Assembly: GCF_015169395.1 (NCBI RefSeq)
Contig: NZ_CP063458.1
Location: 4,588,001 to 4,652,000, forward strand
Origin: Humisphaera borealis
Lineage (GTDB): Bacteria > Planctomycetota > Phycisphaerae > Tepidisphaerales > Tepidisphaeraceae
Length of the DNA: 64,000 nucleotides
Direction: 5' to 3'
The position numbers and the translations under genes were made by a program. The notes beneath the pieces were generated by a model. That model worked only from the letters and a program-made list of their open reading frames with translations, was not told where the DNA came from and ran no database searches. Numbering within the stretch: position 1 is the first letter of the stretch; each line of letters starts with the position of its first letter. Shown piece after piece: positions 12,143 to 54,960 of the stretch.

Positions 12143-15100
12143 TCATCGGCTGAGAAAGACCAGCGTTCCCTCGGGAAGGTCGCGAACGGCAGCCTCGTCG
12201 ATTGTCCAGGTTTCGCCGTTGTGCGTTGCGACTTTCACCAGCCGAGCCGCCGCCGATGGGAGCGGTGCGGTGACCACCGCAGGGGCTACCGGAAGTGTTG
12301 CCGGCTGAGAAGTCGACACCGGTGGCGGGGCGGGAGGAGCATCAGGAGCAGCACTGGGCAAAGCGCTGTTCGAAACGGCAGGCATCCCGCTCGCCGCGCC
12401 ATCGGGGGGCTTCACTGCAAATGCCGATGTCGCGCTGGCGGTCCCGGCGGCCGTAGCAACCTTCCACTTGCCGGCATCGTCTTTTAGAAGCATCGCTGTT
12501 CCGACGAATGGCGGTTTGAGTCCGGAGAATAGGCTTGCCCGCCTTTCGGCGACCAGCTTTCTTGCCACGTCGCCGCGGGGAATCTTGCCGATGATGGACT
12601 TGAGGCTGTCCATGGTGACGGCCGGCACCGGATTCGTCTGGTCGTACCAGACAATGTTGTCGAGGCGCTGCCGTTCGAGGTCGGCAATCGCCCGGTCGTA
12701 GAGATCTCCGATCGCCCATCCGTCCACGCGTGAGGTGGCGCGAAGCAGATCTCGCAGAAGGATCGCCCGCACGACAGGGTCGATCGCAGTGTTAGCGATC
12801 AGCTTATCCACCTGATCAATTCCCCAGGTGTCCCAGCTACGGTCGTCCACCGTCTTCATCTGCTCTGCCATTTCACGCACGAACAAGGCGTGAGGCAGCA
12901 GCACAGGCTTCTCGCTGACGAGATTCTTCGGCGCCAGGAGCGTAACGGTCTTCTTCCTCGCCAGGTTCTGCGGATCGATCGAGTCGAAGATACATCTTAC
13001 GCGCGTGCCCACGCCCTGCCGCTGCACCGCCGGATCGCCGAGCACGTAGTAGCGGGACTTGTCGTTGACCTCGAGGTAACTCAGCTCCGACATCAACGGC
13101 GACGTCAGGATATCGCCCATTTCCGTCTGCCACGCGTTGGGAATGGACATCGCGGCAGCGGCCTGCTGCAGGTAGTCGATGTACCCTGCCGCGCTCTGTG
13201 GTAACGGAGATTGCGGATTGTCGCCGATGAACTGCCGCAGGGTGTCCAACCGCTGCCGGGCGACCTTTTCGTTCGGCGGTGCGGGTGCGGCGGCGAAGGG
13301 CGTCATCAATGCGGAATACCGGTCGACCGACTCATAAAGGTCGAGCGTCGCTGCGGCCTTCGTGAAGTCGGGGCTCACTGACGATTGTGGGAAACGCGAT
13401 GCAAACTGCTGCAGTGCCTGCCGCGCGGCGGCCACCGACCCGGCGGACTCGTGAATCGCAAGTCGGGCATCATGTTCGTCGCGGGCGCGGCGGATGGCGT
13501 CGCGGATGGCGGCAAGGCGCGGACCGACGGCATCGGCGGCGGCCTTTGCCGCATCGCCGCCCCGGTCGAGTTGCGGGATGATAACGCTCAGGTCCTTCTC
13601 GGCGGCGGCGAGTGCAGCCTCGGCTGTGGCGATGTCACTGGCGCGCGGGGCGACGACCAGTACCCCAGCCTTCTTCGACGCCGCGTCGATCTGCGCGACC
13701 AGCCACGAGGCGTATCGGGCTCGCAGTGACTCACGCTCCTTCTGCAACCGTTCGGCAGCGGCGGCGACCTGATTCCTGGGGTCCATCCGCTTGGCATCCT
13801 GCGGCTTGCCCCAGCTTCCCAATGCCTCGTCGGCCGACAGCGATGCCGTCCACCAGTCGTCGGGGCTTCCGTCGGCCAACGCCTTCGTCGCCTTGTCGGA
13901 TGCAGCCGCGAAGATCGTCGTCATTCCCTTGACCCAGTCGCGATCGCGTTCGACTTGCTCGGCCAGAACCGTGGCCGATTTCTTGGCCGCCGCCACCTGC
14001 GGGTCATTGCTGGCACCGGGTGCGAGTGATTCCTGCTCCGAGACCAGCTGCTTCGCCAGATCGACGTTCCTGTCGGCGACTGCCTTCTCGATGCGGCGAG
14101 CCCATTCCCGGGCGATTCCCTGTTGGGTCTGCCAGTAGAACACCCCGAACGCGAGTGCCAGAAGGGCCGCAATGCCGGCGACGATCGCGATGTTGCGAAA
14201 GCGTGCCGCCTTCGCACGCGCCTTGAGCCGGGCGTCGTAGCGTGCCTGCAATTCTGGCGGAACAGGCTTGGTTCCCAACGCCACGATGGCGTTGTAGGCG
14301 ACCGCCAGATCACGGTCTTTCGCTTCGGCGTTCAAGGCATCGGCCAGCGCGTCGCAGGCGTCGGTGTGGGCTTTTCGGCGAGCGAGCGACTGATTCTGCT
14401 GTTGCACCCATGCGGCGGCGGCGCGGATATCGGCGGCGGCGTCGTCATTCAACGAAGCAACCCCCAGAGTCGCCGACTGGTCCTTGAGCTGCTCGAGCAA
14501 CGCCGAGCAATCCGGCAGCGATTTGGCGGCATATGCCGACCGCAGCTTGCTCAGCAGCTCAGTCACCTGCGACGTTGCCTCGGCTTGCTGGGCCCGGGTG
14601 TCGATCTCGCGCGCCATCGACGCCAGATCCGGTGGAACGGTTTCGTACCACGGCACCTGCAGGACCTCGGCAGCAAGCGATTTGAATGCGGGTACGTCGC
14701 GTTCCTTCGCGGCGACGGCAAAGCCCACGCGCAGTTCCTTGAATCGGGCGGCCTCGAACGTGCGGATGTCCTTCTCCCAGAAGGGGCCGGGATCAGCCGC
14801 GGCCAGTTGCCGCATCACATCCAGTCGATCTGCGAGCGGGCCCTTTGCCAGCGCCAATCGCCGATGGGTCGCGTAAAGCTGTTGGAGGGGCTGGTCCTGG
14901 CCGTAGGCATCGTTGAGCTGCGCCGCCCGGTCCATCTGTAACGGCGGCGGAACGGGCATGTCGTTCCGCTGGCACATCTCGACCCACCCCTCGGCATCGG
15001 GCAGATCAAGCGCCGCGACGAGGTCCAGCAGATTCGGGGGAGCCTCCGCGGCGTGGACCGCCTCGGCGCGAAGGCCGCGCTGCAGCAGCATGGCGCACTG

Positions 15101-15235
15101 CCGAAGACGGTCGTTCGCCGTGGCGCATAGTGACGCATAGGCCGCCGCGGCTTCGCGGACTTCATCGCTGACGACTTGGACCCCCGATGCACGGAAGTCG
15201 CGAAGGAACTCGATGGTTCGTTGATGGTCGCTCAT
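12143..15235 (-). CDS. Large single-pass membrane protein of unknown function, last gene of the Tad/GAP1 operon
   Basis: The 1030-residue protein is alanine-rich and predicted to be almost wholly helical. A soluble N-terminal part (residues 1-342) precedes one transmembrane helix (FRNIAIVAGIAALLALAFGV at about 343-362). Then come long charged helices with coiled-coil character (for example AAAERLQKERESLRARYA around 500). The C-terminal part is more globular (about 700-930), with a Pro/Ala linker and a short terminal segment KVATHNGETWTIDEAAV that looks like a small beta domain. No catalytic motif was found. It begins 23 bases after the GAP1-like gene on the same strand, the tightest spacing in the operon, so translation is probably linked. 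A membrane scaffold for the GTPase/GAP1 pair is a plausible role, but this is inference only. Confidence 0.75.
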   Translation of the reverse strand: MSDHQRTIEFLRDFRASGVQVVSDEVREAAAAYASLCATANDRLRQCAMLLQRGLRAEAVHAAEAPPNLLDLVAALDLPDAEGWVEMCQRNDMPVPPPLQMDRAAQLNDAYGQDQPLQQLYATHRRLALAKGPLADRLDVMRQLAAADPGPFWEKDIRTFEAARFKELRVGFAVAAKERDVPAFKSLAAEVLQVPWYETVPPDLASMAREIDTRAQQAEATSQVTELLSKLRSAYAAKSLPDCSALLEQLKDQSATLGVASLNDDAAADIRAAAAWVQQQNQSLARRKAHTDACDALADALNAEAKDRDLAVAYNAIVALGTKPVPPELQARYDARLKARAKAARFRNIAIVAGIAALLALAFGVFYWQTQQGIAREWARRIEKAVADRNVDLAKQLVSEQESLAPGASNDPQVAAAKKSATVLAEQVERDRDWVKGMTTIFAAASDKATKALADGSPDDWWTASLSADEALGSWGKPQDAKRMDPRNQVAAAAERLQKERESLRARYASWLVAQIDAASKKAGVLVVAPRASDIATAEAALAAAEKDLSVIIPQLDRGGDAAKAAADAVGPRLAAIRDAIRRARDEHDARLAIHESAGSVAAARQALQQFASRFPQSSVSPDFTKAAATLDLYESVDRYSALMTPFAAAPAPPNEKVARQRLDTLRQFIGDNPQSPLPQSAAGYIDYLQQAAAAMSIPNAWQTEMGDILTSPLMSELSYLEVNDKSRYYVLGDPAVQRQGVGTRVRCIFDSIDPQNLARKKTVTLLAPKNLVSEKPVLLPHALFVREMAEQMKTVDDRSWDTWGIDQVDKLIANTAIDPVVRAILLRDLLRATSRVDGWAIGDLYDRAIADLERQRLDNIVWYDQTNPVPAVTMDSLKSIIGKIPRGDVARKLVAERRASLFSGLKPPFVGTAMLLKDDAGKWKVATAAGTASATSAFAVKPPDGAASGMPAVSNSALPSAAPDAPPAPPPVSTSQPATLPVAPAVVTAPLPSAAARLVKVATHNGETWTIDEAAVRDLPEGTLVFLSR

Positions 15236-15258
15236 GATTCGTGCGGACGGGAGAAGGA

Positions 15259-17718
15259 CTAGTGAGAGCTCAGCCGCAGTGTCGCCACACGGAGTCTACC
15301 CGGCAATTCGACGATGATCTGTACATCCTGGAACTGCTCGAAGGCGCGGAAGGTTTCGGCTGCCGCCCGCCGGGCCATTTCCGCCGGCTCTCGCTTGTCC
15401 GTGGCGGCGGCGACTTCAGCGTCCCACAAGTTCCTGGCTTCTTCGATTCTTGCCTTTTCGCCCTTGATTCGCTCTCGCAGTGCCGGCCGGTTTGTAAATC
15501 GGTTAGCCAGTTCGGTATCGGTCAGCTTGAGCTGCGCGACCGCTTCGGCAAGACGTGCCTGCATCGGATCGATCGCCGCCTTCTGCGCTTCCTTCAAACG
15601 GGCGATCTCATGATCGGCCTTGGCGAGTGCCGCCTCGGCGACAGAGACGGCTTTCCTTGCCCCGGCGGTCTGGATGGCAAAGTCGCTGCGGAGGGCACCC
15701 CACCTAGGTCCGACGCGGACTGCGAATTTGGCGGTCTCGCCGCCCAGGCTGTTGGGTCGCTCAAAAAGAAGCACGCCCACATCGGTCTCTCCGGCGACTG
15801 CGGCCCGGGTTGCGGGGCCGGCGGCCCAAGCGAACGTCCACTGGTCGGGCAGGTCGCTATCGGGCTGGCAGATGGCATCCGGCAACGTGGACAACGTCAG
15901 CGGCGTTGTCGATGCCGTCAGGTTTACGTCGATCGGCGTCGGCTGCTTGAATCGGATGGCCTGTGGCCGGCGGTTGGCTGCGTCGGCGATCGTCAGTTCC
16001 GTGTTGTGCAGCAGTACGCGTACCAGCGAGATCACCTCCGGCCGATTGAGCAATGCCTTCATCCGCCAGGCGATCTCCAGTGTTCCGCCGGCCTGGGAGG
16101 TCTCCAGTGAGATGGTTGCGACATCGAGCGGAACGGACTTATTGGCGTCATCGCGCCAGACGAGCTGATACCGGAATCCTCCTGAGGCATCGGCCGTCAG
16201 CACGCCGGCAAGGTCCTTCTGTCGGTACGTGTAAGAGCTGCCGCCCCCGGGAAACGCGATTCTGAACGCCGCGATCGCGGGCAGGTTGTCGAACTGGGCC
16301 GCGGGGATCGAGAACGCCTGCGCCGGCGCTTTGAGCGCTGCGCCGGTCGTCGCCGGCGGTTGCACCTCCGTCGGTAACTGGATCGGGGTGGGAGGAACGA
16401 CCGGCTTTACCGGCACTGGGGTTACGGGAATCGGTTCCACCACAACCGTCTCGGCGGTCGTTGGCGCGGTCGGTGTCGGCGGCACCGGTGGGGCGATCTT
16501 GATCACCGGCTGTGTTACGGGGTCGGGCGTCACCGGCAGGGCGGTGGAATCGGTGTCTTCGTGAGAGGTCGGCGTGCTCGGCCGCTCGGCCGTTGCCTGC
16601 CGGGCGGACATCCGCAGCCAAACGCCGGCAGCGATGAAGATCAGTGCGACGAACGACACACCAATCAGCAGCCACATCCGAGACGATTTCTGGTGATCGA
16701 CCCAGGACGTATCGACACTGCGAGCCGTGCCGGTCGTCGTCCCCCGAACGGACTGGGCCTCGATCTGATCAAAGACCGATGACAACGGCCTGGCGGCGGG
16801 CGTGTCAAACGCTTCGGGCATCAGCTCGAGTGGTTCCACCTCGACTTCAACCGGGGTGGCCGGCTTGGCGCGCGACGGTACCGGCCGTGGCTTCTCCGAT
16901 GGGCCGCTGACGACGGGCGATCGGCCGGATCTTGCCGCATCGACCCACGGCCCGGCCGGAGGTGCACCCAGACCGCCGGAACGCGTCAGGTCGATGACGA
17001 GCCCACCGCCGGCGTGACGGACGGCATCGGCGGCAGCAGGCGTGCCGGCGAGGCAGCATCGCCAGGCACAGATGGCATTGCCGGGCAGCCCCGTGAAGTA
17101 GGTGCTGAACGTGATGTCCCATCTCTTGGACGCCGGCAGGAGCGCGATCGCCTCGGCAATCAGGGGCAGTACGTCATGATCGGGGCCGAAGAGAATACAG
17201 ACAGGCTTTCGCGGCGATTTCAGTCCCGCCTCGGCGAGCACGCCACCCCAGCCGGCGTCGCCCGTCAGTCGCTGCCATGCACTGCAGGGCGCTGGCCGAA
17301 CGTCGCCGATCGGAAGCGGCGAGCGGCGATGGATCGACCCGACCATGCCGTCCCACCGGGATTGCATCGTTCCCGGTCGCGCGATCATCCAGGCCGGCCC
17401 ACCGGCCGCTCGCTCGGTCGCTTCGATCGCGATGTGATGAGCGAAAGAGTTGGTCCGCTGCGTGTAGTCGAGCCCCGAATCGCAGATCCGCGACAACGTG
17501 CTGATCTCACGCCCTTGCACCTGTAGCAGCCAGTGCGCCCACGTCACCGGGTTGCGGCCGCCGCTGCCGGTGGTGAACTCGTGGCGGTAACCGCTGACCG
17601 ATTCGAGCCTGTCCCACAGCGGGCGCGGAATGCCATCGGTTGTCGCAACGGTGCAGAAGCCCCGTTGTCCCGGCCGAAGGCCTTCTGGGGCGGAGGTGTA
17701 GTAGATCTCGTGGCTCAT
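15259..17718 (-). CDS. GAP1-like GTPase-associated protein with transmembrane helix
   Basis: The N-terminal region (about residues 3-150) reads IYYTSAPEGLRPGQRGF, with DYTQRTNSFAHHI around residue 85-97. These match the conserved YTSxxxGL...G and D-x-x-x-R-x-N-x-x-AH signature of GAP1 N-terminal domains. A second block ASKRWDITFSTYFTGLPG (about 192-209) matches the GAP1 middle domain. Both were defined in proteins encoded beside small GTPases in NTPase-dependent conflict systems. A transmembrane helix (LLIGVSFVALIFIAAGVWL, about 351-369) follows a Pro-rich linker, then a Pro/Thr-rich stretch and a C-terminal domain ending in a coiled coil. The start is set at MSHEIYYTS; the frame extends 38 codons further through an inverted repeat. 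The GTPase gene is directly upstream. The role is presumably control of, or signalling from, that GTPase at the membrane. Confidence 0.75.
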   Translation of the reverse strand: MSHEIYYTSAPEGLRPGQRGFCTVATTDGIPRPLWDRLESVSGYRHEFTTGSGGRNPVTWAHWLLQVQGREISTLSRICDSGLDYTQRTNSFAHHIAIEATERAAGGPAWMIARPGTMQSRWDGMVGSIHRRSPLPIGDVRPAPCSAWQRLTGDAGWGGVLAEAGLKSPRKPVCILFGPDHDVLPLIAEAIALLPASKRWDITFSTYFTGLPGNAICAWRCCLAGTPAAADAVRHAGGGLVIDLTRSGGLGAPPAGPWVDAARSGRSPVVSGPSEKPRPVPSRAKPATPVEVEVEPLELMPEAFDTPAARPLSSVFDQIEAQSVRGTTTGTARSVDTSWVDHQKSSRMWLLIGVSFVALIFIAAGVWLRMSARQATAERPSTPTSHEDTDSTALPVTPDPVTQPVIKIAPPVPPTPTAPTTAETVVVEPIPVTPVPVKPVVPPTPIQLPTEVQPPATTGAALKAPAQAFSIPAAQFDNLPAIAAFRIAFPGGGSSYTYRQKDLAGVLTADASGGFRYQLVWRDDANKSVPLDVATISLETSQAGGTLEIAWRMKALLNRPEVISLVRVLLHNTELTIADAANRRPQAIRFKQPTPIDVNLTASTTPLTLSTLPDAICQPDSDLPDQWTFAWAAGPATRAAVAGETDVGVLLFERPNSLGGETAKFAVRVGPRWGALRSDFAIQTAGARKAVSVAEAALAKADHEIARLKEAQKAAIDPMQARLAEAVAQLKLTDTELANRFTNRPALRERIKGEKARIEEARNLWDAEVAAATDKREPAEMARRAAAETFRAFEQFQDVQIIVELPGRLRVATLRLSSH

Positions 17719-17726
17719 TGGTCTCG

Positions 17727-17817
17727 AGTAGGCAGTACGCAGTACGCAGAGAAGAGACGTTGCGGTTCGAACTCGCCTCTTTCCTAACTGCGTACTGCTT
17801 ACTGCGTACTGCCTACT
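17727..17817. repeat. Inverted repeat with GCAGTAC-word arms
   Basis: Left arm 17727-17749 repeats AGTACGC with an 8-base period; right arm 17788-17817 is the imperfect reverse complement, again with tandem words (CTGCGTACTGC twice). It fills the spacer between the GTPase and GAP1-like genes and overlaps the GTPase stop codon. Confidence 0.8.
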
Positions 17818-19114
17818 TTCCCTTGGCCCCATGAATCAGGCCCTGCGTCCAGCGTGCATAGGCGTACAGGATCGGTACCGTCACCCAGCGGGGATGGATG
17901 TCTTTGGGCCGCACCACCAGGCCGCCAGCCTCGGGGTTCTTCTGCGGCGAAACGCCCAGGGCACTGACCGGGATGTAGAGAACCTCTTCGCAGAAGTCCT
18001 CGGCGGTGGTGACGATTTCGGGAGAGACGTCGAGCAACAACTGGCGGACCAGCGTCGACACGCGCTCCACATGTTCCATGTCCACCGCAGACAGCGGCGA
18101 GCCAGCGGCGGGCGGTAGAACGGGTTCCTTCGTCAGATCGGCCTGAACCAGCGGTGCCCAGACGTCACTTTTGGCGACCAGTACCAGCAGCGGCGCGTTG
18201 TGCCGCTGATACGTTGACAGGCCCGTATGCTTCCGCACCCGCTGGGCCGCTTCACTCAGGATGCTTTCCTGCCGGATCGTATGCAGAGGCTCGACAACCT
18301 GCGGGTCCCTGGAGATCGGCCGGCACTTCTCGCGGAAGCGCGGGTCCTGTGTCGGATCGAACAGGAACATCAGCACTTTGGCCTTCGACAAGTGCCGCGT
18401 AACCGGGGAGACGGCCGTATCCTGCCCGACCGCGTAATGCTCGCCTGCGTTGTCGTAAAGGCAGACGATGTTGCCGGCGCGACGGCGGTGCTTCTCCCAC
18501 GGATGCCCGGCTGCCGGGTGCATGCTGAACAGGAACGGCTTGGGCACCTGCACTTCCTGTCCGTTCAGGCGGACCGAGCGATAAAGATCTCCCTGCGTAC
18601 GGGTCTTCTCCAGCACGGTCAACCGCTCGGGGTCGTCCGGCAGGAACAGCAGCTCCTCGTAGCGGTTCAAGGCCCAGTTGGATTCCTTGTCGGCGTCGGC
18701 GAACGTAATCGCGAACTGCCGGGCCAGCACGCGGCGCAGCTCCCAGGTCATCGCCGCCAGGAAGTTGGACTTCCCGCTGCCCACGCTGCCGACCAGCGAG
18801 AAGAACGTGATCGGGTTCTCCAGCAGCAGCCTCGGGATGACCAGATGACACTCGGGGCAGGCGAGCGTGCGGCAGACCATCTCACGCGCATCGATCGCCG
18901 AGCCGTCGAGCGTAAACCGCGTCGGCAGGAAGCGGATCGGCTCATCTTTGACGATCGGGTCGCCGACAAGTTCCTCGTGTTCGGACACCCAAAGGACCTC
19001 CTCCGGCTTGAACGTCCGCCAGCAGTGCGGGCAGACAACCTTGCGGACGAGGGGGTTGCCGTCGTCCTTCGAGGGCAGGCGTTTGGAGGATGGCGAAGCG
19101 ATGTCGGCGGTCAC
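17813..19114 (-). CDS. GTPase with zinc ribbon, GAP1 partner type
   Basis: The 433-residue product has two Cys pairs (CPHC at about residue 28 and CPEC at about 88) forming a probable zinc ribbon. Then comes a P-loop GSVGSGKSNF (about 108-117), a Walker B/G3-like LYDNAGE (about 216-222) and a G4-like LLVLVAKSDVW (about 310-320). The P-loop followed by D-x-AGE is the pattern of the GTPases that accompany GAP1 proteins in NTPase conflict systems (DO-GTPase type in domain nomenclature). It would be cytosolic. Its stop is 94 bases ahead of the GAP1-like start, with a hairpin element between. The initiation codon is GTG; upstream GGAGATCC is a modest ribosome site. Confidence 0.78.
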   Translation of the reverse strand: MTADIASPSSKRLPSKDDGNPLVRKVVCPHCWRTFKPEEVLWVSEHEELVGDPIVKDEPIRFLPTRFTLDGSAIDAREMVCRTLACPECHLVIPRLLLENPITFFSLVGSVGSGKSNFLAAMTWELRRVLARQFAITFADADKESNWALNRYEELLFLPDDPERLTVLEKTRTQGDLYRSVRLNGQEVQVPKPFLFSMHPAAGHPWEKHRRRAGNIVCLYDNAGEHYAVGQDTAVSPVTRHLSKAKVLMFLFDPTQDPRFREKCRPISRDPQVVEPLHTIRQESILSEAAQRVRKHTGLSTYQRHNAPLLVLVAKSDVWAPLVQADLTKEPVLPPAAGSPLSAVDMEHVERVSTLVRQLLLDVSPEIVTTAEDFCEEVLYIPVSALGVSPQKNPEAGGLVVRPKDIHPRWVTVPILYAYARWTQGLIHGAKGK

Positions 19115-19149
19115 GAGTGCGGATCTCCGGTGGTTTTAATTCGGAGGCC

Positions 19150-19258
19150 GAACATCGAACATCGAACACCGAACATCGAACATCGAATGCAGGAGAATGA
19201 CGATTCGCTCCTCTCCATTCGGTGTTCGGCGTTCAGTGTTTGATGTTCGATGTTCGCC
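19150..19258. repeat. Inverted repeat with GAACATC-word arms
   Basis: Left arm 19150-19190 is a tandem of the 9-base word GAACATCGA and close variants; the right arm 19216-19258 is its imperfect reverse complement (TTCGATGTT words). It occupies the spacer between the pseudokinase and GTPase genes. Similar arrays give spurious translations such as NIEHRTPNIEHRM. Confidence 0.85.
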
Positions 19259-19288
19259 TTCATGGACTTGTTCTCATAGCGATGTCGC

Positions 19289-20515
19289 TCACCCAATCAG
19301 TCCTTCAACGCTTCCCGCCGGCTTCCAGGTTCGCTGGTCGATCGATACCTGGTGCAGGCGTGAGAACTGGCCCTGTCGGCTCATCCGTTGCAACGTGGCG
19401 ACATCGAACGGGCCGCTGGTCTGGTTTCGCAAACGGATGAAGTAACGTTCGTTGCCGGTCGTCACCTGCATGCCACCAGAAGGTGCCTGCGGTGCAGACC
19501 CCAGACCGACGGACACAGATCCCAATGGCCGGTTCGGCGCGGCCGGCGGGGGCCTTGCACCGAACCTTGGCGCAGCCGGGGCGCTCATGGGTGCGTTGAC
19601 GGTCGGCGGCAGCGGGCCGGGAGCCATGGGGGGAGTATCGACCGACGAGCTCTCGCCCGCGCTTGCCAGGTCAGTCAGAAGATCGGTCGTGGACGCATAT
19701 CGCGCGTTGATCGGCTTGGCGATCAGCCTGGCGATGATCTGGCCGAGGCGCTCGGGGAAGCCCCGGACTACTTCGTGTGCTGGTGCGGGAACGGTGGGCA
19801 TCGAATGGTGCCACGCCTGCCACTTGGCCGGGTTCACCGACCGCAGGTCTCCGCCGCTCTCGGCGACCGCAGGAAACTGCTGGCGGTGCAGCTTGGCGCC
19901 CAGCGCCATCTCGTAGGCGATGTGCCCCAGGGCATACAAGTCGGTCGAAGGACCCGGCTTGCCGGACTCGGACGTGACCAGCTCCGGGCCTGCGTAGCGG
20001 ACGGACTCGGCCGAAAGCATGGGCTCGGCCGTCGGTGGGGCGGCCAGGCCGAACTCTGATACCTTAAAGTGCCGTCCGCCGTCGAACACGAGGATGCTGG
20101 TCGGCGACAGCCGATTGTGCAGACGCAGAGGTTGCAGGGCGTGCAACGCCGCAACGCCACGCGCGACTTGTTCGATCATCCGCAGCACATCGGCCGACGC
20201 CGCCGGAGCCTGGCCCAGAAGCTGTTCGAGCGTCGCAGCCGGACGTTCCATCGCGATCCAGGGGACGCCATCGGTCAGGCCCATGCCGTAGAACGTGACG
20301 ACGTGCGGGTGAGATGCGAGGGACGCAAGGATGCGGACTTCTTCGACAAACCGCGACTCGCCCGAGGGATCGGCCTTGGAGAGAGCCGGGAGGACTTTCA
20401 CCCGCACCGGTCGCGTGACCCCGCCGTGCAGCTTCTCGTCGCCATCATAAAGCGTCCCGCCGGGGCCGGTGGCGAGTTGGTCGGTGAGGGTGAATCGGTC
20501 GAACTGCTTTTTCAT
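19289..20515 (-). CDS. Ser/Thr pseudokinase fused to a GYF-like domain
   Basis: The 408-residue protein has a protein-kinase fold in residues about 8-270. The ATP-anchoring lysine is kept (RVKVLP), but key catalytic residues are changed. The HRDLKPxN loop reads HNRLSPTSI, losing both Asp and Asn, and DFG reads EFG. AGPEL corresponds to the APE motif. It is therefore probably a pseudokinase. After a Pro-rich linker (PMAPGPLPPTVNAPM) the last 50 residues (YFIRLRNQTSGPFDVATLQR) form a GYF_2/DUF4339-like domain, a module that binds proline-rich peptides. The start at 20515 is preferred because the frame before it runs through a repeat element. Its neighbours are an FHA protein and a GTPase, suggesting an adaptor rather than an enzyme. 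Confidence 0.82.
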   Translation of the reverse strand: MKKQFDRFTLTDQLATGPGGTLYDGDEKLHGGVTRPVRVKVLPALSKADPSGESRFVEEVRILASLASHPHVVTFYGMGLTDGVPWIAMERPAATLEQLLGQAPAASADVLRMIEQVARGVAALHALQPLRLHNRLSPTSILVFDGGRHFKVSEFGLAAPPTAEPMLSAESVRYAGPELVTSESGKPGPSTDLYALGHIAYEMALGAKLHRQQFPAVAESGGDLRSVNPAKWQAWHHSMPTVPAPAHEVVRGFPERLGQIIARLIAKPINARYASTTDLLTDLASAGESSSVDTPPMAPGPLPPTVNAPMSAPAAPRFGARPPPAAPNRPLGSVSVGLGSAPQAPSGGMQVTTGNERYFIRLRNQTSGPFDVATLQRMSRQGQFSRLHQVSIDQRTWKPAGSVEGLIG

Positions 20516-20551
20516 TAGATTGCGATGCCTGGATCGGTAAACATCGACATC

Positions 20552-20642
20552 GGGTGGCATTGGGCAAGCGTACTCGCTTGCCCGTGTCGAACGTCGGATG
20601 GCGCTCGTCATGGGCAACGGGGTACCATTGCCCATGCCACCC
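20552..20642. repeat. Two-hairpin element, family A copy 1
   Basis: A 91-base element bounded by GGGTGGCA and TGCCACCC. It contains a perfect hairpin GGGCAAGCG-TACT-CGCTTGCCC and a second hairpin GGGCAAC...GTTGCCC. Near-identical copies are at 50475-50564 and 62243-62332. It lies in the spacer between the FHA-TM and pseudokinase genes. Confidence 0.9.
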
Positions 20643-20649
20643 GGACGGG

Positions 20650-21441
20650 TCACATTCTCTTCAGAATACCACCCTTGTTCTGTTTCGACGCAAATGCCAG
20701 TCTTCGATTCACAAACTGCGCCAACGCCGCCGCCAGCTGGTCATCCGACGGCTGGGTGGCGGGCTGCTTGGGGTTGGGCCGAAGCAAGGCGGTCAACTGC
20801 TTGCCGTCGGGGTCTCTACCGGCCAGTTCGAGTGCTTTGAGGTTCTTTTCGGTAGTGGACAGCACGATCTGCATGCGGAGCCAAAGCTTGGCGGCGTTTT
20901 CGTAGTCGTGGGTCTGTTCCAGGCGCCAGACGCGGTCGAACAGGTCGACGGCTTCACGCGGGACGCGGCCCTTGGTGGCCTGCTTCTCCAACCAGGGGGC
21001 GAGGATGCGGTGGGCATTGTCCCAGTCGTCAACGGACGAGCCGGAACCTTCGAACTCGCCGGAATAGAACACTGCCGCCACGGCTAGTGACAGCATGACG
21101 CTTAGCAGCAACCCGAGGAACGCCCGACTGGAGAACAAGCCCCCGCCGCCCGGTGGCTCCAGCCGCACGATGCAGTCTCCGGACAGGCGGATCTTGTCGC
21201 GCGGGCGAAGGCGTACCCGCCCGGCGACCTTGGTATCGCCGACCCAGGTGCCCAGGGCCGATAGGTTCTCGATGAAGTAGTCGTCGCCTTCGCGGGTGAG
21301 GACGGCGTGTTCCCAGGAAACGTCCTCGGGCGAGAGCTTGACCGCCGCCTTCTGTCCCCGGCCGATGACGTGCGACCCCGGCGGGACAGGGAAGGTCTGT
21401 CCTTTCTCGGGGCCGGAGATGACGTTGATGACGAGGTCCAT
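20650..21441 (-). CDS. FHA-domain membrane protein
   Basis: The 263-residue product has an N-terminal FHA domain (residues about 5-95) with the phosphothreonine-binding signature HVIGRG, then SWEHAVL and ENLSALGTWVG, corresponding to the GR, SxxH and NG(S/T) loops. A transmembrane helix follows (FLGLLLSVMLSLAVAAVFY, about 108-126). The rest is a helical domain with TPR-like flavour (RVWRLEQTHDYENAAKLWLR). The protein would present a phosphopeptide reader in the cytosol. Since the adjacent kinase homologue lacks catalytic residues, its phospho-ligand would have to come from another kinase. It lies between tadC and the pseudokinase on the same strand. Confidence 0.88.
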   Translation of the reverse strand: MDLVINVISGPEKGQTFPVPPGSHVIGRGQKAAVKLSPEDVSWEHAVLTREGDDYFIENLSALGTWVGDTKVAGRVRLRPRDKIRLSGDCIVRLEPPGGGGLFSSRAFLGLLLSVMLSLAVAAVFYSGEFEGSGSSVDDWDNAHRILAPWLEKQATKGRVPREAVDLFDRVWRLEQTHDYENAAKLWLRMQIVLSTTEKNLKALELAGRDPDGKQLTALLRPNPKQPATQPSDDQLAAALAQFVNRRLAFASKQNKGGILKRM

Positions 21442-21448
21442 GGGAGTT

Positions 21449-21598
21449 AATGACGAATGGCGTAATCCGAATGGCGAATGAAGTCAGAATGTTAAATGAC
21501 GAATGGAGGCGTACGCCGAACTGCTTTCGATTTAGTTTTGAATATTGAACATTCACTCGTCATTCGAGTTTCGCCATTCGTCATTCCCACTCGTCATT
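21449..21598. repeat. Inverted repeat with GACGAATGG-word arms, copy 1
   Basis: Left arm 21449-21484 (AATGACGAATGGCG, then GAATGGCGAATGAAG) and right arm 21555-21598 (CGTCATTCGAG, CGCCATTCGTCATTC) are imperfect reverse complements. It fills the spacer between tadC and the FHA-TM gene and overlaps the tadC stop codon. Confidence 0.8.
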
Positions 21599-22532
21599 TC
21601 AGTTGAAATCCTCCCTGCAGAAACCGCACGAGCATCGGCCCGAACAGCAGGATGACCGCCGCCACCAGGACGAGCGTGGAGGGGATCATCACCATCACGC
21701 CCGCCGCGCCGGCCTTGCTCTGCGCCTGCAGCACGCGCTCGGCGGCCATCCGGTCGGCCTGGCGTTCGAGCGTGTCGGCCAGCGGCCATCCTAACTCTTC
21801 CGACTGCACAATGCTGTCGGCGAGCGCGTTGATGTCAGGGCTGGGGACGCGGTCGGCCCATCGCCGCAGGGCCTCGACCCGGGGCGAGCCCATATCGATC
21901 TCGGCCAGCACCTGCCCGAGTTCGTCGCCGACGGGATGATCGGCATAGTCTTTAACCACGCGCTGCAAAGCCACGTTGAGCGAGGTTCCCGATCGCAGGA
22001 TGAGCACGATCAGGTCCAGCACGTAGGGCATCGACCGGACGATGCGCAGTTCTCTTGCTTCGGCCTTGCTCTTGAGGCTCGAGACCATCACCAGGAAACC
22101 CGCCGGCAGAAAGCCGATCCCGAGCAGGGCGAACTGCGGCCCGAAGACAACGGCCGCAGAAAAGCCCGAGAAGACGGCCATCACGATGCCCAGGACGACG
22201 CCAAGCGAGAGCAGTTCGTCGTCATCCAGCCCGCCGGGATAACCGGCGCGGGCGTAGGGAGCGCGAACGTACTTTCGAAGCGCCGGCAGCCCGAGCCGCG
22301 AGATGAAGGTGGCCGGTATCCGCAGCCAGGCGAGCAGAATGGTAATGCCCGGCGAATCCTGCATCGCCCGGCGGCGCATCTCGCTGCGGCGCATCGACGG
22401 GTCGACGTTGGCGTTGGACGCCGACCCGTCCGATTGCAGCGATCGATACCCCGCAAAGCCAAGCAATGCCGCCGCCATGCCGAAGCAGAGCGACGAGATG
22501 AGCTTGACGAGGGTGGGGTCGAGAGAGTCCAT
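21594..22532 (-). CDS. tadC: Type II secretion F-domain platform protein, TadC-like
   Basis: The 312-residue product has an N-terminal helix, then the T2SSF domain. In it VRSMPYVLDLIVLILRSGTS and ALQRVVKDYADHPVGDEL form the conserved cytoplasmic helical region, followed by LGWPLADTLERQADRMAAER and two C-terminal transmembrane helices. This is the layout of TadC, the smaller of the two inner-membrane platform proteins that work with the TadA ATPase in Flp/Tad pilus assembly. The start is placed at MDSLDPTLV; the frame extends through the upstream repeat. It directly follows tadB in the same orientation. Confidence 0.9.
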   Translation of the reverse strand: MDSLDPTLVKLISSLCFGMAAALLGFAGYRSLQSDGSASNANVDPSMRRSEMRRRAMQDSPGITILLAWLRIPATFISRLGLPALRKYVRAPYARAGYPGGLDDDELLSLGVVLGIVMAVFSGFSAAVVFGPQFALLGIGFLPAGFLVMVSSLKSKAEARELRIVRSMPYVLDLIVLILRSGTSLNVALQRVVKDYADHPVGDELGQVLAEIDMGSPRVEALRRWADRVPSPDINALADSIVQSEELGWPLADTLERQADRMAAERVLQAQSKAGAAGVMVMIPSTLVLVAAVILLFGPMLVRFLQGGFQLK

Positions 22533-22538
22533 CGGGGT

Positions 22539-22682
22539 AATGACGATTGACGACATTCGAATGGCGAATGAACGTCCAATGATCAAATCTCAAACTGACT
22601 TGGCGTTGGTGATCACCTTTCGTTCATTGATATTTCGAGTTTGGAGCTTCATTCGCCATTCGGGCTTCGGCGTTCGTCATTT
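22539..22682. repeat. Inverted repeat with GACGAATGG-type arms, copy 2
   Basis: Left arm 22539-22595 starts AATGACGATTGACGACATTC and the right arm 22605-22682 ends GGCGTTCGTCATT. The pairing is imperfect but extends for more than 50 bases. It lies in the spacer between tadB and tadC and is related to the element at 21449-21598. Confidence 0.75.
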
Positions 22683-22698
22683 CGTGGCACCGCCGCCA

Positions 22699-23538
22699 TC
22701 AAATTTCCGCGTGCGTGATCTTCCCCGCAAAGAAGATCCCTGCCGCGATGAACACACCGGCGACCATCAGCACGGCGTAGCCTTGCGACGTGGTGAAGAG
22801 CATCTTCACGCCTTCGGCGTCAGCCGTGGACATCATCAGCAGCAGGATCACCGGGGCTACCAGCAGCACCTTGATGTTGGTGCGCCCCTCGGCCGTGTGC
22901 GCTTCGACCGTCTGCCGCATGTGGTGCAGTTTGTCGAGAGAGCGTGAGATTCGGCTGAGTGTCTCGGCGGCGTCGCCGCCCATCTCTCGGTTGACCAATA
23001 GCGCCGAAGCGAACAGGTTGAAGTTCTGCGACTTCAGCCGGTCGCGGGCTTCGTCGATGGTCACCTCGATCCCTGCGCCGAACGAGTACCGATTAGCCAT
23101 GATGCGGAACTCAGTCCGGATCGGTTCGGGCGCATTTTCTGACAGCCGCTGGATGGCCTGCACCAGCGTTAACCCGGCCCGCAGGCTGTTGGCGAGCGAG
23201 GAGATCGCCGGAGGCAACTGCAAATCGATCTGCCGTCGGCGTTTCTGCCACATGGATTCGACGATGATCTTCGGAACTGCCAGCAGGATGAGCCAGAAGA
23301 CGACGCCGAACAGCGGGTTTGGCGTAATGAAGACGAGCACCAGCAGCAGCAGGATAAATGCGACGTAGTAGTAGATGGTCCATCGCTTGGCATCGACCGG
23401 TTCAGGGTTGAACCGCTGGCGGTTCCGGGCGATCCAGTCGGCGTCGCGCTGGAATCGGCGCGTGAGATAACCCCGCAGCCCCCAGACGAGGAGGACGATC
23501 GAGAGGCCGATGAGTGCTGCGATGCCTAACGCTTTCAT
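22699..23538 (-). CDS. tadB: Type II secretion F-domain platform protein, TadB-like
   Basis: The 279-residue product has one N-terminal helix (GIAALIGLSIVLLVWGL) and a pair around residues 55-90. The T2SSF core reads LPPAISSLANSLRAGLTLVQ...LSENAPEPI...FNLFASALLVNREMGGDAAETL, and a C-terminal membrane region follows. This is the usual TadB arrangement. TadB and TadC together form the inner-membrane platform. The start MKALGIAAL is taken; thirteen extra codons upstream are not family-like. Confidence 0.9.
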   Translation of the reverse strand: MKALGIAALIGLSIVLLVWGLRGYLTRRFQRDADWIARNRQRFNPEPVDAKRWTIYYYVAFILLLLVLVFITPNPLFGVVFWLILLAVPKIIVESMWQKRRRQIDLQLPPAISSLANSLRAGLTLVQAIQRLSENAPEPIRTEFRIMANRYSFGAGIEVTIDEARDRLKSQNFNLFASALLVNREMGGDAAETLSRISRSLDKLHHMRQTVEAHTAEGRTNIKVLLVAPVILLLMMSTADAEGVKMLFTTSQGYAVLMVAGVFIAAGIFFAGKITHAEI

Positions 23539-23567
23539 TTCAATACCGCTTTCGGCGGGCGAAGAGC

Positions 23568-23710
23568 GGATCACCACGGAGGCACGGAGACACGGAGGGT
23601 CACTCGGCGATCATCAAGTGGCGCGCTCCCAACCTGTCATTCGGAGTACCTCAGGATGACAAGTGAGGACGCCGTTTGCCGAGCGAGCCTCCGTGCCTCG
23701 GTGGTGATCC
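23568..23710. repeat. Inverted repeat with GGAGGCACGGAG arms
   Basis: Left arm 23568-23608 (GGATCACCACGGAGGCACGG...) pairs with the right arm 23678-23710 (...TCCGTGCCTCGGTGGTGATCC). A second smaller hairpin sits inside at 23634-23662 (TGTCATTCGGAG / CAGGATGACA). It occupies the spacer between tadA and tadB. Confidence 0.85.
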
Positions 23711-23720
23711 CTTTCTTTCT

Positions 23721-25604
23721 TCATACCTTCACCTGATCAAACCATGGCCGCAATTGCAGGTGTCCCTGATCGACCATTTCTCCGAGAAACGTCGGCATGT
23801 ACCCGGTCGGACGGAGCTCGAGGGTATTGCCGACGTGGGCCACCTTAAGGATGTCGCGGGTTTCCAGTTCGCCGGTCACCGGGTGCAGGCCGGTGACCTC
23901 GGTGAGCTGGCAGACCAGCCGCCGGCCGTCGGGCATGCGTTCGGTGTGGATGATCAGGTGAATCGCCGACGCGATCTGTCGTCGGACGGCGGCCAGCGGG
24001 ATGTCGGCACCCATCAGGACCATCGTTTCCAGGCGAGACAGCGCGTCGGCGGCACTGTTGGCGTGAAGGGTGGTCATCGAACCACGGTGGCCGGTGTTCA
24101 TGCCCTGCAGCATGTCGATCGCTTCGTTGCCGCGGACTTCGCCGACGATGATGCGATCCGGCCGCATGCGCAGCGCGTTCTTCACCAAGTCGCGAATGGT
24201 GTATTCGCCGGTGCCCTCGGCATTGGCCGGCTTGGTTTCCAGCGTGACGACGTGCTCCTGCTGCAGTCGCAACTCGGCGGAGTCTTCGACGGTAATCAAA
24301 CGATCAGCGCCTGGAATGAAGCCGCTCAGCACGTTCAGCAGCGTCGTTTTGCCGCTGGAGGTGCCGCCTGACACCAGGATGTTGCACCGGTGCAGCACGC
24401 ACGCCCGCAGCAGTGTTACGGTGAACGGCTGGAGCGACCGCCAGCGGACGAGGTCATCGGCACTGACGTGCGAGACGGGAAACTTGCGGATAGTGACGCA
24501 GGGCCCTTTGACGGCCAGGGGCTCGATGATCGCGTTGACGCGCGAGCCGTCGCGCAGCCGAGCGTCCACCAGCGGTTGAGAGCGGTCGATCCGGCGGCCG
24601 AGCGGCGCGACAATGCGCTCGATGATCGTTACGCACGCCGCTTCGGACGGGAACGTCTGCGGGGCCTTAGTGATGCGCCCGTTCCGCTCGACGTAGATGC
24701 GCGTCGGGCTGACCACCATGATTTCGGTGATGCTCTGCGATCGCAGCAGGTCTTCCAGCGGCCCGAGGCCGAAGACCACGTCATACAGCACCTTCTTGAG
24801 ATAGCTCGTGATGATGTAGGTGCGGGCGTTGTCCAGCAGCTCGGCGGCAACGGGACCGACGACGCCGTCGAAGCGGGCTTCGACCATCTGCTCTGCGGTC
24901 ACGGCGGACGTCTTATTCTCGACGATGCCGACCTTGGCCGACAGCCGCTTGATCGCATCGGTCGCCGAACGTTCCAGTTCGGAGCTGATGCCGACGGCGG
25001 CCCAACCGGTCGTCGTGCGTTGCTCGCGGCCGAGGTGGGTGAAGACCCAATCGAGCATGCGGGCGCGTAGCGCGCGGGCGAGGATGATCGGGGGCAGGTC
25101 GGACTCGAACACCCGCGATTTGAACTCGCCGGACAGCAGGTCGTCGAGCACCGAATTGAGCTTTTCGGTCCGTTCGCCGGCGGCGCCGTTGGAGGAGAAC
25201 GAACCCAGTCGAAGATCAAGCCGGCGGAGCAGCTCGGCGTGCAGCGCATTCTGCACCTCCGTCAGCCGGTCGCTCGCCGATTCCTGCTGCTGGGCTTCTG
25301 GAGAAGCTTCGGCGGCGTCGAGCGCGAGCACGAACTCCATGAGCCGCAGTCGGGCTGTGCCGCGAACCACGACCTTCTGACCGGCGGCATACTCCTGGCC
25401 GTCGATCTCGACGGGGTTCACGCCGGGCAACAACTCTATTTCCCATGCCCCATCATTGCGCTCTACGCGTGCGTGCACGCCGGCGATGAAGCGCGACTCC
25501 AGCCGCACGTCACAGGTGGGATCGCGGCCGATCAGAAAACCGGCCGGGCCGTCGACGGCGACCCACTGTCGGTTGGTGAGGGTGTTTTGAACGACGACGC
25601 GCAT
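23721..25604 (-). CDS. tadA: Tad/CpaF secretion ATPase with N-terminal FHA domain
   Basis: The 627-residue protein starts with an FHA-like domain (residues about 1-90: AGFLIGRDPTCDVRLESRF, then VHARVERNDG), which is not part of ordinary TadA/CpaF. The C-terminal half is the secretion ATPase: LGPLEDLLRSQSITEIMV (about 285-302), Walker A GGTSSGKTTLL (about 414), Walker B RPDRIIVGEVRG, and the His box TGHRGSMTTLHANS. It powers assembly or export through TadB/TadC. The ATG at 25604 is used; the longer frame runs back through a hairpin element. The FHA fusion suggests that motor activity is tied to phosphorylated partners, for which FHA and kinase-like genes lie downstream in the same operon. Confidence 0.93.
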   Translation of the reverse strand: MRVVVQNTLTNRQWVAVDGPAGFLIGRDPTCDVRLESRFIAGVHARVERNDGAWEIELLPGVNPVEIDGQEYAAGQKVVVRGTARLRLMEFVLALDAAEASPEAQQQESASDRLTEVQNALHAELLRRLDLRLGSFSSNGAAGERTEKLNSVLDDLLSGEFKSRVFESDLPPIILARALRARMLDWVFTHLGREQRTTTGWAAVGISSELERSATDAIKRLSAKVGIVENKTSAVTAEQMVEARFDGVVGPVAAELLDNARTYIITSYLKKVLYDVVFGLGPLEDLLRSQSITEIMVVSPTRIYVERNGRITKAPQTFPSEAACVTIIERIVAPLGRRIDRSQPLVDARLRDGSRVNAIIEPLAVKGPCVTIRKFPVSHVSADDLVRWRSLQPFTVTLLRACVLHRCNILVSGGTSSGKTTLLNVLSGFIPGADRLITVEDSAELRLQQEHVVTLETKPANAEGTGEYTIRDLVKNALRMRPDRIIVGEVRGNEAIDMLQGMNTGHRGSMTTLHANSAADALSRLETMVLMGADIPLAAVRRQIASAIHLIIHTERMPDGRRLVCQLTEVTGLHPVTGELETRDILKVAHVGNTLELRPTGYMPTFLGEMVDQGHLQLRPWFDQVKV

Positions 25605-25619
25605 GGGGAAGTCATCGCG

Positions 25620-25685
25620 GCATGGGCATGTACCCATGCCCGTGTGGTCGGACGAAGACACGGGCATGACTACATGCCCATGCCA
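25620..25685. repeat. Two-hairpin element, CATGCCC variant
   Basis: Two perfect short hairpins, GGGCATG-TACC-CATGCCC and GGGCATG-ACTA-CATGCCC, are set as mirror copies around a 10-base centre flanked by GTGT / ACAC. It has the same design as family A but a different stem sequence. It lies in the spacer between cpaB and tadA. Confidence 0.85.
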
Positions 25686-25698
25686 CAAAACGATCACC

Positions 25699-26463
25699 TC
25701 ACGGAAGAGGCGTCGGTGGCGGACACAGTAACAACGTAATCGGCAACTGCCCGCTGCCGCCTCCGGTCTGTTCCAGGATCGTCTTGGCCTGGGCCTCGCT
25801 TACGTCCAGCGTCACAGTCTGCTGTGATGTCGATTCGCCCGCCCCCTGATACTGCTCGGCTGCGGTCAGCTGCGAGCGCGAGCGGGAGAGCCGCTGATTG
25901 ACGGCGATCACGCGGAAAGCCTGCGGGCTGACGATGACGGTCTCGTAGGTCGCTTCTGTCGGCGTTTCGACCTCGGTACCGGCCGGAAGTGTCGCCGGCC
26001 GGGCGGCGGGCTTCGGACGGGTGACGAGGACCTTCACATAGTCCCCGGGGATCAGCAGCCCGCCGAGCGCGCTCGATCCCTTCACCTGAATCGAAAGGGC
26101 CCGGCTGTCGCCGCGAAGTTCCAGCGTGGCGGCGGCCGCCAGGTCGGCGAGAAGGACTGGTGTGCCTGCAAGAATGTCGCGGTTGATCCTCTGGCCTTTG
26201 TAGGATGCCTTCAGCTCCGGCGTCAGGCCGCGGGACTTGAGCTCGACCAGCTTCGCGGGGATCTCCAACTCGACAAAGTCCTTCTCCGGATCGAGCAGCG
26301 CCCCCGATCGCAGATCGCGCTTCGCGACCAGGATGACCGACTTGGGGCCGCGGTCCTGCGACGCGCCCGTCTCCAGGTAGACGAACGCCGCCACCATGGC
26401 TACCACACCCAGGAGAACGGAACTCAGCAGAAAGACACGGCTGTTTGATCGCGATTCTGCCAC
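25699..26463 (-). CDS. cpaB: Flp pilus assembly protein CpaB/RcpC-like
   Basis: The 254-residue product has an N-terminal transmembrane helix (VFLLSSVLLGVVAMVAAFVY) and then an SAF/CpaB domain: SVILVAKRDLRSGALLDPE, GQRINRDILAGTPVLLADL and ALSIQVKGSSALGGLLIPGDYVKV. In Tad systems CpaB/RcpC is a periplasmic protein acting with the secretin channel. It is the first gene of the minus-strand Tad/GAP1 operon; a divergent MFS transporter lies upstream. The GTG at 26463 is chosen because GGAGG lies four bases ahead; a GTG seven codons earlier is also in frame. No secretin (CpaC/RcpA) gene accompanies it here. Confidence 0.87.
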   Translation of the reverse strand: MAESRSNSRVFLLSSVLLGVVAMVAAFVYLETGASQDRGPKSVILVAKRDLRSGALLDPEKDFVELEIPAKLVELKSRGLTPELKASYKGQRINRDILAGTPVLLADLAAAATLELRGDSRALSIQVKGSSALGGLLIPGDYVKVLVTRPKPAARPATLPAGTEVETPTEATYETVIVSPQAFRVIAVNQRLSRSRSQLTAAEQYQGAGESTSQQTVTLDVSEAQAKTILEQTGGGSGQLPITLLLCPPPTPLP

Positions 26464-26778
26464 AGGTCCTCCGTCGATCGCCACGTCGGTTTTTGGGAAC
26501 GGTGAGAATGCTGGGTGTCGGCGTTCTGCCGTTCACCTTGGGGATGACACGATTCAAGCCCGGTCGTACCCGCTGCCAAACCCACACGGAATCCCGCTGC
26601 AACTCCGTGCGCGGATTGTGCGCAGGAAAGGGTGTGCGAGCAAGAGACCGTTCAGCCCGTCTTGAATCAAGTCGTATACGCCGTACCCACGATGGCGGAG
26701 TGACGACCGGAATCCTGCCGATCGCGACAGAGTCAGAACCTCGCGAAATGCTGCTTGCCCGACCCTGACTTCCCGACC

Positions 26779-36530: not shown

Positions 36531-36810
36531 GAACGCTCCTAAGCGAGACTCGGTTCCACCTCGCGATCCGGCATCACCCGACACCGTTGAACCCGACGAG
36601 AGGACTCCACCAGAGCCTGTAACGCGAGATACCGGGAAAAATTACAGGCCCGCCATAAATGCGGATCGGACTCCGCCTGCCGGCCTACCAGAATCCCTGT
36701 AGTGACACCCCGGGTTTGCCCGGCTTTTGAAGATTCCTCTCTCCAATCTGCGCCAGCGTAGAAGATTCGAACTGTCCTCCGTGCCCCCCGTGTCTGCTCT
36801 GAAAATGCCG

Positions 36811-36889
36811 GAATGAACCGCAGATTTCACAGATTGCGCAGACGGGAAAGAGTCCAATCTGCGACATCTGCGTAATCTGCGGTTCATCC
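36811..36889. repeat. Inverted repeat with CGCAGATT-word arms
   Basis: Left arm 36811-36842 (GAACCGCAGATTTCACAGATTG...) and right arm 36856-36889 (AATCTGCGACATCTGCG...GGTTCATCC) pair imperfectly, each arm holding repeated CAGATT/AATCTG words. It lies in the 413-base gap between the SBBP and EF-hand genes, where no other feature was seen. Confidence 0.8.
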
Positions 36890-36943
36890 CATGTCCGGAC
36901 CCATTTGGCGTCCGGCGTTCATTCTCTAGACCGGGAACAGAGG

Positions 36944-46707: not shown

Positions 46708-46921
46708 TGCTCCATCTCCCCTGTACTTGGGGGAGAGGGTCGGGGTGAGGGGCCGAACGTAAGGCACCGCGATCCGCCTAACTGCACCGCTTGCGGTATC
46801 GCCAATACAGAGGCGCGACCCGGACCTCAAAACTCCTGGCAATAAATCGATTCAGGATCGACGCCCGACGTTCGGCCCCTCACCCCAACCCTCTCCCCCG
46901 AGTACGGTGGAGAGGGAGCAA
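46707..46921. repeat. Inverted repeat with CCCTCTCCCC arms between dnaX and the oxidoreductase
   Basis: Left arm 46707-46760 (TTGCTCCATCTCCCC...GAGGGGCCGAACGT) and right arm 46868-46921 (ACGTTCGGCCCCTCACCCC...GGAGAGGGAGCAA) are imperfect reverse complements over about 54 bases. The left arm covers the probable ribosome site and abuts the start codon of the oxidoreductase; the right arm ends at the dnaX stop codon. Confidence 0.85.
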
Positions 46922-50457: not shown

Positions 50458-50474
50458 ATTGAGGCACGGATAGT

Positions 50475-50564
50475 GGGTGGCATGGGCAAGCGTACTCGCT
50501 TGCCCGTGGCGATCACCAATCAACGTTCGACACGGGCAACGGAGTACCGTCGCCCATGCCACCC
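50475..50564. repeat. Two-hairpin element, family A copy 2
   Basis: 90 bases bounded by GGGTGGCA and TGCCACCC, with the same GGGCAAGCG-TACT-CGCTTGCCC and GGGCAAC...-type hairpins as at 20552-20642. It lies between the Ig-like and the next secreted-protein gene, just ahead of the Ig-like gene's signal peptide. Confidence 0.9.
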
Positions 50565-50620
50565 AATCTCAGCGATCTGCGTTCTGCACCAGCATCAGTG
50601 CATGCCCATGGCACAACCGC

Positions 50621-51733: not shown

Positions 51734-51829
51734 CGGCGGCTCCTTCGAGTTTTCAGGACCTGAAAGGGGAAGTGGACTGCCGCGAATGGTAACATTCGTG
51801 GTTCGAAGCCTCAATCGATAATTGCGGGT

Positions 51830-51900
51830 TTGTCACTTGTCACTTGTCACTCGGTCCGCTGACCAGTAACCAGTGACCAGTAACAAATGACAAATGACAT
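51830..51900. repeat. Inverted repeat with GTCACTT-word arms
   Basis: Left arm 51830-51855 is TTGTCACTTGTCACTTGTCA-type tandem 7-base words; right arm 51870-51900 (ACCAGTGACCAGTAACAAAT...) is the imperfect reverse complement. It lies between the divergent genes starting at 51733 and 51945. Confidence 0.75.
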
Positions 51901-54882: not shown

Positions 54883-54960
54883 TGAACGCCAAGACGCCGA
54901 GGCGCCAAGAGTCACAATGTCTCGGATGTCTTACTTGGCGTCTCGGCGTCTCGGCGTTCA
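54883..54960. repeat. Inverted repeat with GGCGCCAAGA/TTGGCGTCTC arms
   Basis: Left arm 54883-54912 (TGAACGCCAAGACGCCGAGG...) and right arm 54933-54960 (ACTTGGCGTCTCGGCG...GTTCA) pair imperfectly, with a 9-base word periodicity. With the half-element it makes up most of the spacer between the divergent methyltransferase and permease genes. Confidence 0.8.

Follow-up and report, generated by a model that had tools for sequence, protein, structure and literature searches.

Hairpins in seven successive spacers of a tad-type operon of Humisphaera borealis as probable small mobile elements of two kinds

A row of pilus-secretion (tad-type) genes on the minus strand of the Humisphaera borealis genome, presumed to form a single transcript, carries a long inverted repeat in each of seven successive spacers. 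The row lies in a stretch of 64,000 nt (NZ_CP063458.1, positions 4,588,001–4,652,000), here called the window, and window numbering is used for its features. These hairpins are likely not one regulatory device but small mobile elements, of two kinds, that came to rest between the genes of one operon; as part of the same reading, two are taken as REPIN-like palindromes and five as copies, lacking an open reading frame (ORF), of a hairpin element that resembles the intervening sequences (IVSs) of 23S rRNA and in its full form holds an S23 or GxxExxY gene. The interpretation is carried by observations on the arms and the short words iterated in them, their association with genes, their dispersal, and the occurrence of filled and empty sites.

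Seven hairpins in one gene row

An inverted repeat in each of seven successive spacers had been proposed in a preliminary description of this DNA, and all seven were recovered at nearly the coordinates given there; the spacers measure 94–182 bp with the gene starts called in this analysis, in place of the earlier 94–207. The same hairpin finder located no hairpin in the eighth spacer of the row (15092–15258). A sample of 464 kb, comprising the window and 20 regions of 20 kb each from across the 7.19-Mb genome, was processed with a simple gene caller and the hairpin finder, and an inverted repeat was counted at a score of at least 14. Such repeats occur in 30% of 264 spacers, compared with 0.08% of dinucleotide-shuffled spacers and not one of 253 stretches taken from inside genes, and hairpins are present at 31% of co-directional gene junctions (28% without the operon's seven). 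The genome is rich in spacer hairpins overall, yet seven in succession are exceptional (P = 0.0002 with labels permuted over junctions, a test made post hoc once the run had been spotted); the next longest run is three.

Hairpins in the sample fall into two kinds, namely REPIN-like palindromes (class A) and hairpins with arms of iterated short words (class B), which in the operon are 7–8-base words arranged head to tail and then in reverse orientation. A strict periodicity rule places 23 of the 87 sample hairpins in class B, and this rule overlooks some elements, including the one at 23568. Five operon elements belong to class B, all without an ORF. The tadA/tadB spacer contains the 8-base word CACGGAGR (23568–23710), while the other four have 7-base words: AATGACG/AATGGCG in both the tadB/tadC spacer (22539–22681) and the spacer between tadC and the FHA gene (21449–21599, with the inverted repeat at 21449–21585 and an extra word copy reaching 21599), CGAACAT between the kinase-like and GTPase genes (19149–19256), and AGTACGC/AGTAGGC between the GTPase gene and the gene for GTPase-associated protein 1 (GAP1; 17727–17817). 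The two REPIN-like elements are a palindrome in the cpaB/tadA spacer (25619–25684; GGCATGGGCATGTACCCATGCCCGTG and its inverse) and a double palindrome between the FHA and kinase-like genes (20551–20643), which has copies elsewhere in the genome.

The earlier remark that most of the repeats differ in sequence is partly right, as the elements at 21449 and 22539 share their word and those at 20551 and 25619 share the outer sequence GGCAtGGGCA...TGCCCGTGT. Several were also said to overlap a stop codon; two stops lie inside word copies, namely the TAG of the GTPase gene (17813–17815) in the arm of 17727–17817 and the TGA of tadC (21594–21596) in the element at 21449–21599.

Word arms frame S23 and GxxExxY genes

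The word of the 23568 element frames GxxExxY genes at loci L098, L133/L351, L139, L258, and L372. In L098 (Candidatus Sulfotelmatobacter), L133 (Chloroflexi), and L139 (Planctomycetota), a GxxExxY gene of about 120 codons lies in the loop, and the loop of L097 holds a GxxExxY remnant. The L133 gene (L351) matches PF13366, and TIGR04256 was confirmed on a GxxExxY locus of H. borealis itself (L216), where all four GxxExxY genes lie between class B arms. Because GxxExxY genes were found between word arms, S23, the ORF of the 23S rRNA IVS, was examined for arms as well. Two of the four S23 genes of H. borealis lie between strong word arms, one with the same word as the window element 17727–17817 (L218) and the other with CACGAAGG arms (L219); a third lies between weaker GAAGTC arms (L220), and the fourth has words on one side only (L221).

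We then counted inverted arms, at a score of at least 14, within 200 bp on either side of each gene. Across 26 genomes of the family, arms frame 29 of 33 S23 genes and 30 of 32 GxxExxY genes, compared with none of 85 size-matched control genes. Arms were likewise detected at 25 of 30 S23 and 23 of 30 GxxExxY genes in 20 genomes of other groups, which were reached through loci with the 27-mer described below and are not an unbiased sample; some of the misses are contig ends. On plasmids of sequenced organisms, seven of eight cases have arms (Anabaena, Nostoc, Picosynechococcus, Pseudanabaena, Gemmatirosa, Bernardetia, and Sphingomonas, with Treponema lacking them).

Word length separates the associated genes, being mostly 7 for S23 and 8–10 for GxxExxY: the best period is 7 in 39 of 54 S23 arms and 8 in another 10, compared with 7 in none and 8–10 in 29 of 53 GxxExxY arms. 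By this rule, four of the operon's five class B elements would be of the S23 type and one (23568) of the GxxExxY type. The element at 17727 is regarded as IVS-like because its word is shared with the S23-bearing L218, and the one at 23568 because its word frames the GxxExxY genes of L098, L133, and L139, whereas the CGAACAT and AATGACG elements are putatively assigned to the S23 type by their period of 7 and their form only.

S23 or GxxExxY genes were also seen between core operon genes at five loci (L401, L403, L404, L402, and L407; cas6–cas4, cas10–cmr3, nrdB–nrdA, and fabD–fabG). The presence of S23 genes in cas loci was remarked on in 2013 and left unexplained (PMC3936711). At L331 (approximately 1501–1812), an S23 gene lies between nearly matched arms of more than 100 bp with ACGGTGG/ACGGGAG words, perhaps a recent expansion.

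Dispersal within and across genomes

Hairpin families of the operon are dispersed genome-wide in unrelated spacers. The AATGACG/AATGGCG word recurs at L013, L026, and L028 of the same genome and in other genera, and the CGAACAT element has 14 exact 19-mer matches in its own genome and one in each of three other genera. Several genera contain exact matches to the 23568 arm, as long as 28–30 bases, as shown by comparing the operon DNA with 25 relatives. An exact 27-mer of this arm, TCACCACGGAGGCACGGAGACACGGAG, occurs at no fewer than 120 places in a bacterial genome collection, representing about ten phyla; according to record titles, its hosts include Planctomycetota, Acidobacteriota, Chloroflexota, Lentisphaeria, Kiritimatiellales, Opitutales, Spirochaetota, Bacteroidota, Nitrospirae, Desulfuromonadales, Deltaproteobacteria, Binatia, Latescibacteria, and Desantisbacteria. 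In 55 intervals plus the window, the 27-mer or a close variant is followed downstream by its inward-facing inverse, with varying loops. Two contigs of metagenome-assembled genomes (MAGs), labelled Bacteroidota (L122) and Thermoanaerobaculia (L149), also have the element's flanking sequence in common, through recent transfer or a binning error. Of the REPIN-like elements, the 20551 family has at least seven further copies in its own genome, at 86–88% identity. Two more window copies of this family were noted at 50469–50570 and 62243–62332.

Filled and empty spacers

The orthologous operon was not found in 25 genomes of the same family by protein and DNA searches; the seven spacers therefore could not be compared directly, and orthologous spacers at loci outside the operon were taken from sister species (approximately 76–89% nucleotide identity) instead. 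Hairpins of 131–330 bp correspond to 4–20 bp in the sister (G024/G008 and G002/G023), a class B GATTTTT hairpin is present in one species and no hairpin in the other, and in two cases the same spacer bears different words. Clean absences between sister species mostly concern palindromes other than word arrays, and some elements, among them the GxxExxY elements L251/L252 and L268/L270, are present in both sisters.

Isolates provide the clearest filled and empty cases for gene-bearing class B elements. In Picosynechococcus, 12 bp separate cas10 from cmr3 in PCC 7002, and arms with an S23 gene lie between them in PCC 7003; nrdB and nrdA are 40 bp apart in Calothrix NIES-4105 and have arms and an S23 gene between them in Nostoc edaphicum. 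Together with the genome-wide dispersal and the gene-bearing versions, these filled and empty spacers lend good support to the earlier suggestion that mobile palindromes inserted repeatedly and were tolerated in spacers only. The competing suggestion, that the hairpins are there to tune gene output by RNA processing or attenuation, finds no support in conservation, since sister species frequently have a different kind of hairpin, or none, in the orthologous spacer.

Alternative explanations

An unlikely but serious alternative is that the hairpins were selected as RNA processing or stabilizing elements that decouple the expression of the operon genes, with a mobile origin secondary. The unbroken series of seven junctions agrees with it, as does their position, since all seven hairpins start between −5 and +32 nt relative to the upstream stop codon. 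Folding of the transcribed strand gives strong RNA stems, far more stable than those of shuffles in every case (z −5.3 to −11.6; −9.3 for 25619 and −11.6 for 19149), and hairpins occupy 45% of co-directional spacers of 90–210 bp in the sample but none of 14 short divergent ones. However, absence from short divergent spacers is equally expected from purifying selection on promoters, the same families occur in unrelated spacers throughout the genome, sister-species spacers gain, lose, or swap hairpins, and the 25 family genomes offer no orthologous operon on which conservation could be judged.

Transcription terminators or attenuators would also be located directly after stop codons, but none of the seven stems is trailed by a U-run in the folded strand, the stems and loops are far longer than those of intrinsic terminators, and the elements lie inside a presumed single operon, so that this explanation is quite improbable.

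It is even harder to credit that all seven are REPINs mobilized by the 11 RAYT (Y1_Tnp) genes of the genome. Most RAYT loci bear their own palindromes, and 20551 resembles the one at RAYT locus L010 (score 29, null 19.5). However, the REPIN-like appearance is limited to the two non-word elements, and word-array arms were not seen at RAYT loci and instead frame S23 and GxxExxY genes, by which a RAYT source for the five word-array elements is largely refuted. The score of 25619 against RAYT-locus palindromes is within the null, and no RAYT partner was found for it. The GTAG end tag of GTAG-type REPs is absent from the ends of both 20551 and 25619; it is present in other palindrome families of this genome, e.g., GTAGGGTCCGCC. 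As a separate observation, most RAYT genes (L004–L011) have their own palindrome family at or near the gene, and similar palindromes are dispersed in the window and sample (e.g., L007 with window 10768, L005 with 59924, and L006 with 57948).

Formation of the word arrays in place by slippage and palindrome-templated repair, with no mobility, would suit arms that are tandem 7–10-mers almost matched to each other, but is scarcely compatible with the same 27-base word in about ten phyla, the same two gene families flanked by arms, and empty sites that lack the whole gene and both arms.

Several observations also weigh against settled mobile elements as the explanation. Neither a target-site duplication nor an excised intermediate was found, and no transposition was seen; at the sites compared, target-site duplications were not obvious and the flanks have diverged by 10–25%. 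Neither the CGAACAT nor the AATGACG word was found in a gene-bearing copy in the H. borealis genome or the other genomes searched, and S23 is not a nuclease. Many of the comparison genomes are MAGs, which are prone to binning errors. Finally, a sevenfold run in one operon is unexpected from random insertion and leaves room for a selected role.

Proposed mechanism and wider scope

If the hairpins are settled mobile elements, the direction of change would be insertion and not loss, and full elements or their proteins would aid the spread of gene-less copies in trans. GxxExxY could plausibly act through a nuclease step, either on the target or on an extruded hairpin, and for S23 one might guess at a role as an RNA or single-strand chaperone, by analogy with Avd. 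RNase III would cut the stems close after each stop codon, as in the 23S rRNA IVS. Stems that begin so near the upstream stops look like good RNase III substrates, and the operon mRNA may thus be broken between genes, with this cleavage likely a by-product of the hairpins by analogy with the rRNA case. An effect of the hairpins on gene output is possible as a consequence of insertion.

More tentatively, and at somewhat less than an even chance, word-array hairpins may constitute a widespread, largely undescribed mobile class in many phyla, spreading via a hairpin intermediate (RNA or single-strand), with the unrelated small genes S23 and GxxExxY as alternative helpers, the word length of the arms telling which, and the rRNA IVS as a special case that landed in rRNA. 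In the literature searched, which left out most subscription journals, no paper contained the word sequences, only two mentioned GxxExxY, and four mentioned one of the family names. The proposal would extend the concept of rRNA intervening sequences to a general class of spacer element, provide two large gene families whose function is unknown ("four helix bundle protein" and "GxxExxY protein") with a context, and, if true, explain why S23 genes appear in cas and other operons (PMC3936711). It predicts hairpin-dependent mRNA cleavage and protein-dependent spread, and it cautions that a hairpin in a spacer of such a genome should not automatically be taken for a terminator or riboregulator.

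Comparison with known systems

Similar to the 23S rRNA IVSs of Coxiella, Leptospira, and Salmonella, which combine an inverted-repeat stem cleaved by RNase III with an S23 ORF (PMC4990558), the elements have an inverted-repeat stem, a loop able to hold an S23 (PF05635) ORF, a total size of approximately 430 nt, and a sporadic distribution suggesting horizontal spread (PMC4990558). Different from these IVSs, they occur in many, mostly ORF-less copies in protein-coding spacers, have arms of iterated 7–10-mers, and use GxxExxY as an alternative gene. The operon's seven have a stem and loop and lie between protein genes, not in an rRNA gene; an S23 ORF is absent from the loops of the window copies and present in related copies such as L218.

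Two of the seven share paired palindromes, many copies, and an intergenic location with REPINs/REPs associated with RAYTs or with tyrosine transposases flanked by terminal inverted repeats (PMC3733652), and one of the two (20551) is similar to a palindrome at a RAYT gene, whereas the five word-array elements lack such a palindrome core and are tied to S23 or GxxExxY. Like miniature inverted-repeat transposable elements, the hairpins are short, non-autonomous, and dispersed with terminal inverted repeats, but their arms are word arrays and neither target-site duplications nor a DDE transposase was found. The accessory protein Avd of diversity-generating retroelements is related to S23, sharing its fold and likely ancestry (PMC10053308); neither a reverse transcriptase nor a template/variable repeat was searched for or observed with the present elements.

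The two proteins

Residues D61, E71, and K73 (D..ExK) are invariant in 23 GxxExxY proteins. A search by sequence found no relatives of GxxExxY in the PDB. Its AlphaFold model (mean pLDDT 97) matched lambda exonuclease and SSO0001 in Foldseek (best E 3e-3), and a second structural alignment with SSO0001 gave Z 9.8 and a root-mean-square deviation of 3.2 over 96 residues. The modelled fold thus resembles those of PD-(D/E)XK nucleases. S23, a four-helix bundle, matches the solved structures 2gsc and 2rld.

Genes of the operon and other hairpins

The genes of the row, all on the minus strand, are cpaB/rcpC (25699–26484; PF16976, PF08666), tadA/cpaF encoding an ATPase with an N-terminal FHA domain (23721–25604; PF00437, PF00498), tadB (22699–23538; PF00482), tadC (21594–22532; PF00482), a gene for an FHA-domain protein (20650–21441; PF00498), a protein-kinase-like gene with a GYF_2 domain (19289–20518; PF00069, PF14237), a double-GTPase-like gene (17813–19114; a weak PF19993 match under the family cut-off), and the GAP1 gene (15259–17718; PF20013, PF20014). 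An Rfam search of the window matched a tRNA only, with no match for the hairpins.

Three further word-array hairpins lie in the window outside the operon, at 36810–36890 (CGCAGATT), 51829–51894 (TTGTCACT), and 54883–54960 (CGCCAAGR). A very long composite hairpin at 52567–52827, in which word arms of the CACGAATG type enclose a palindrome of the GTGACACGGCTT type, represents nested elements. Word-array hairpins were also observed within the loops of other hairpins at L159 (7005–7206), L144, L168, L143, and L105, which suggests insertion into existing hairpin loops. A long CCCTCTCCCC/GGGGTGAGGGG inverted repeat at 46707–46921 has similar counterparts at L026 (15115), L287, and L309, the latter two of which vary between sister species.

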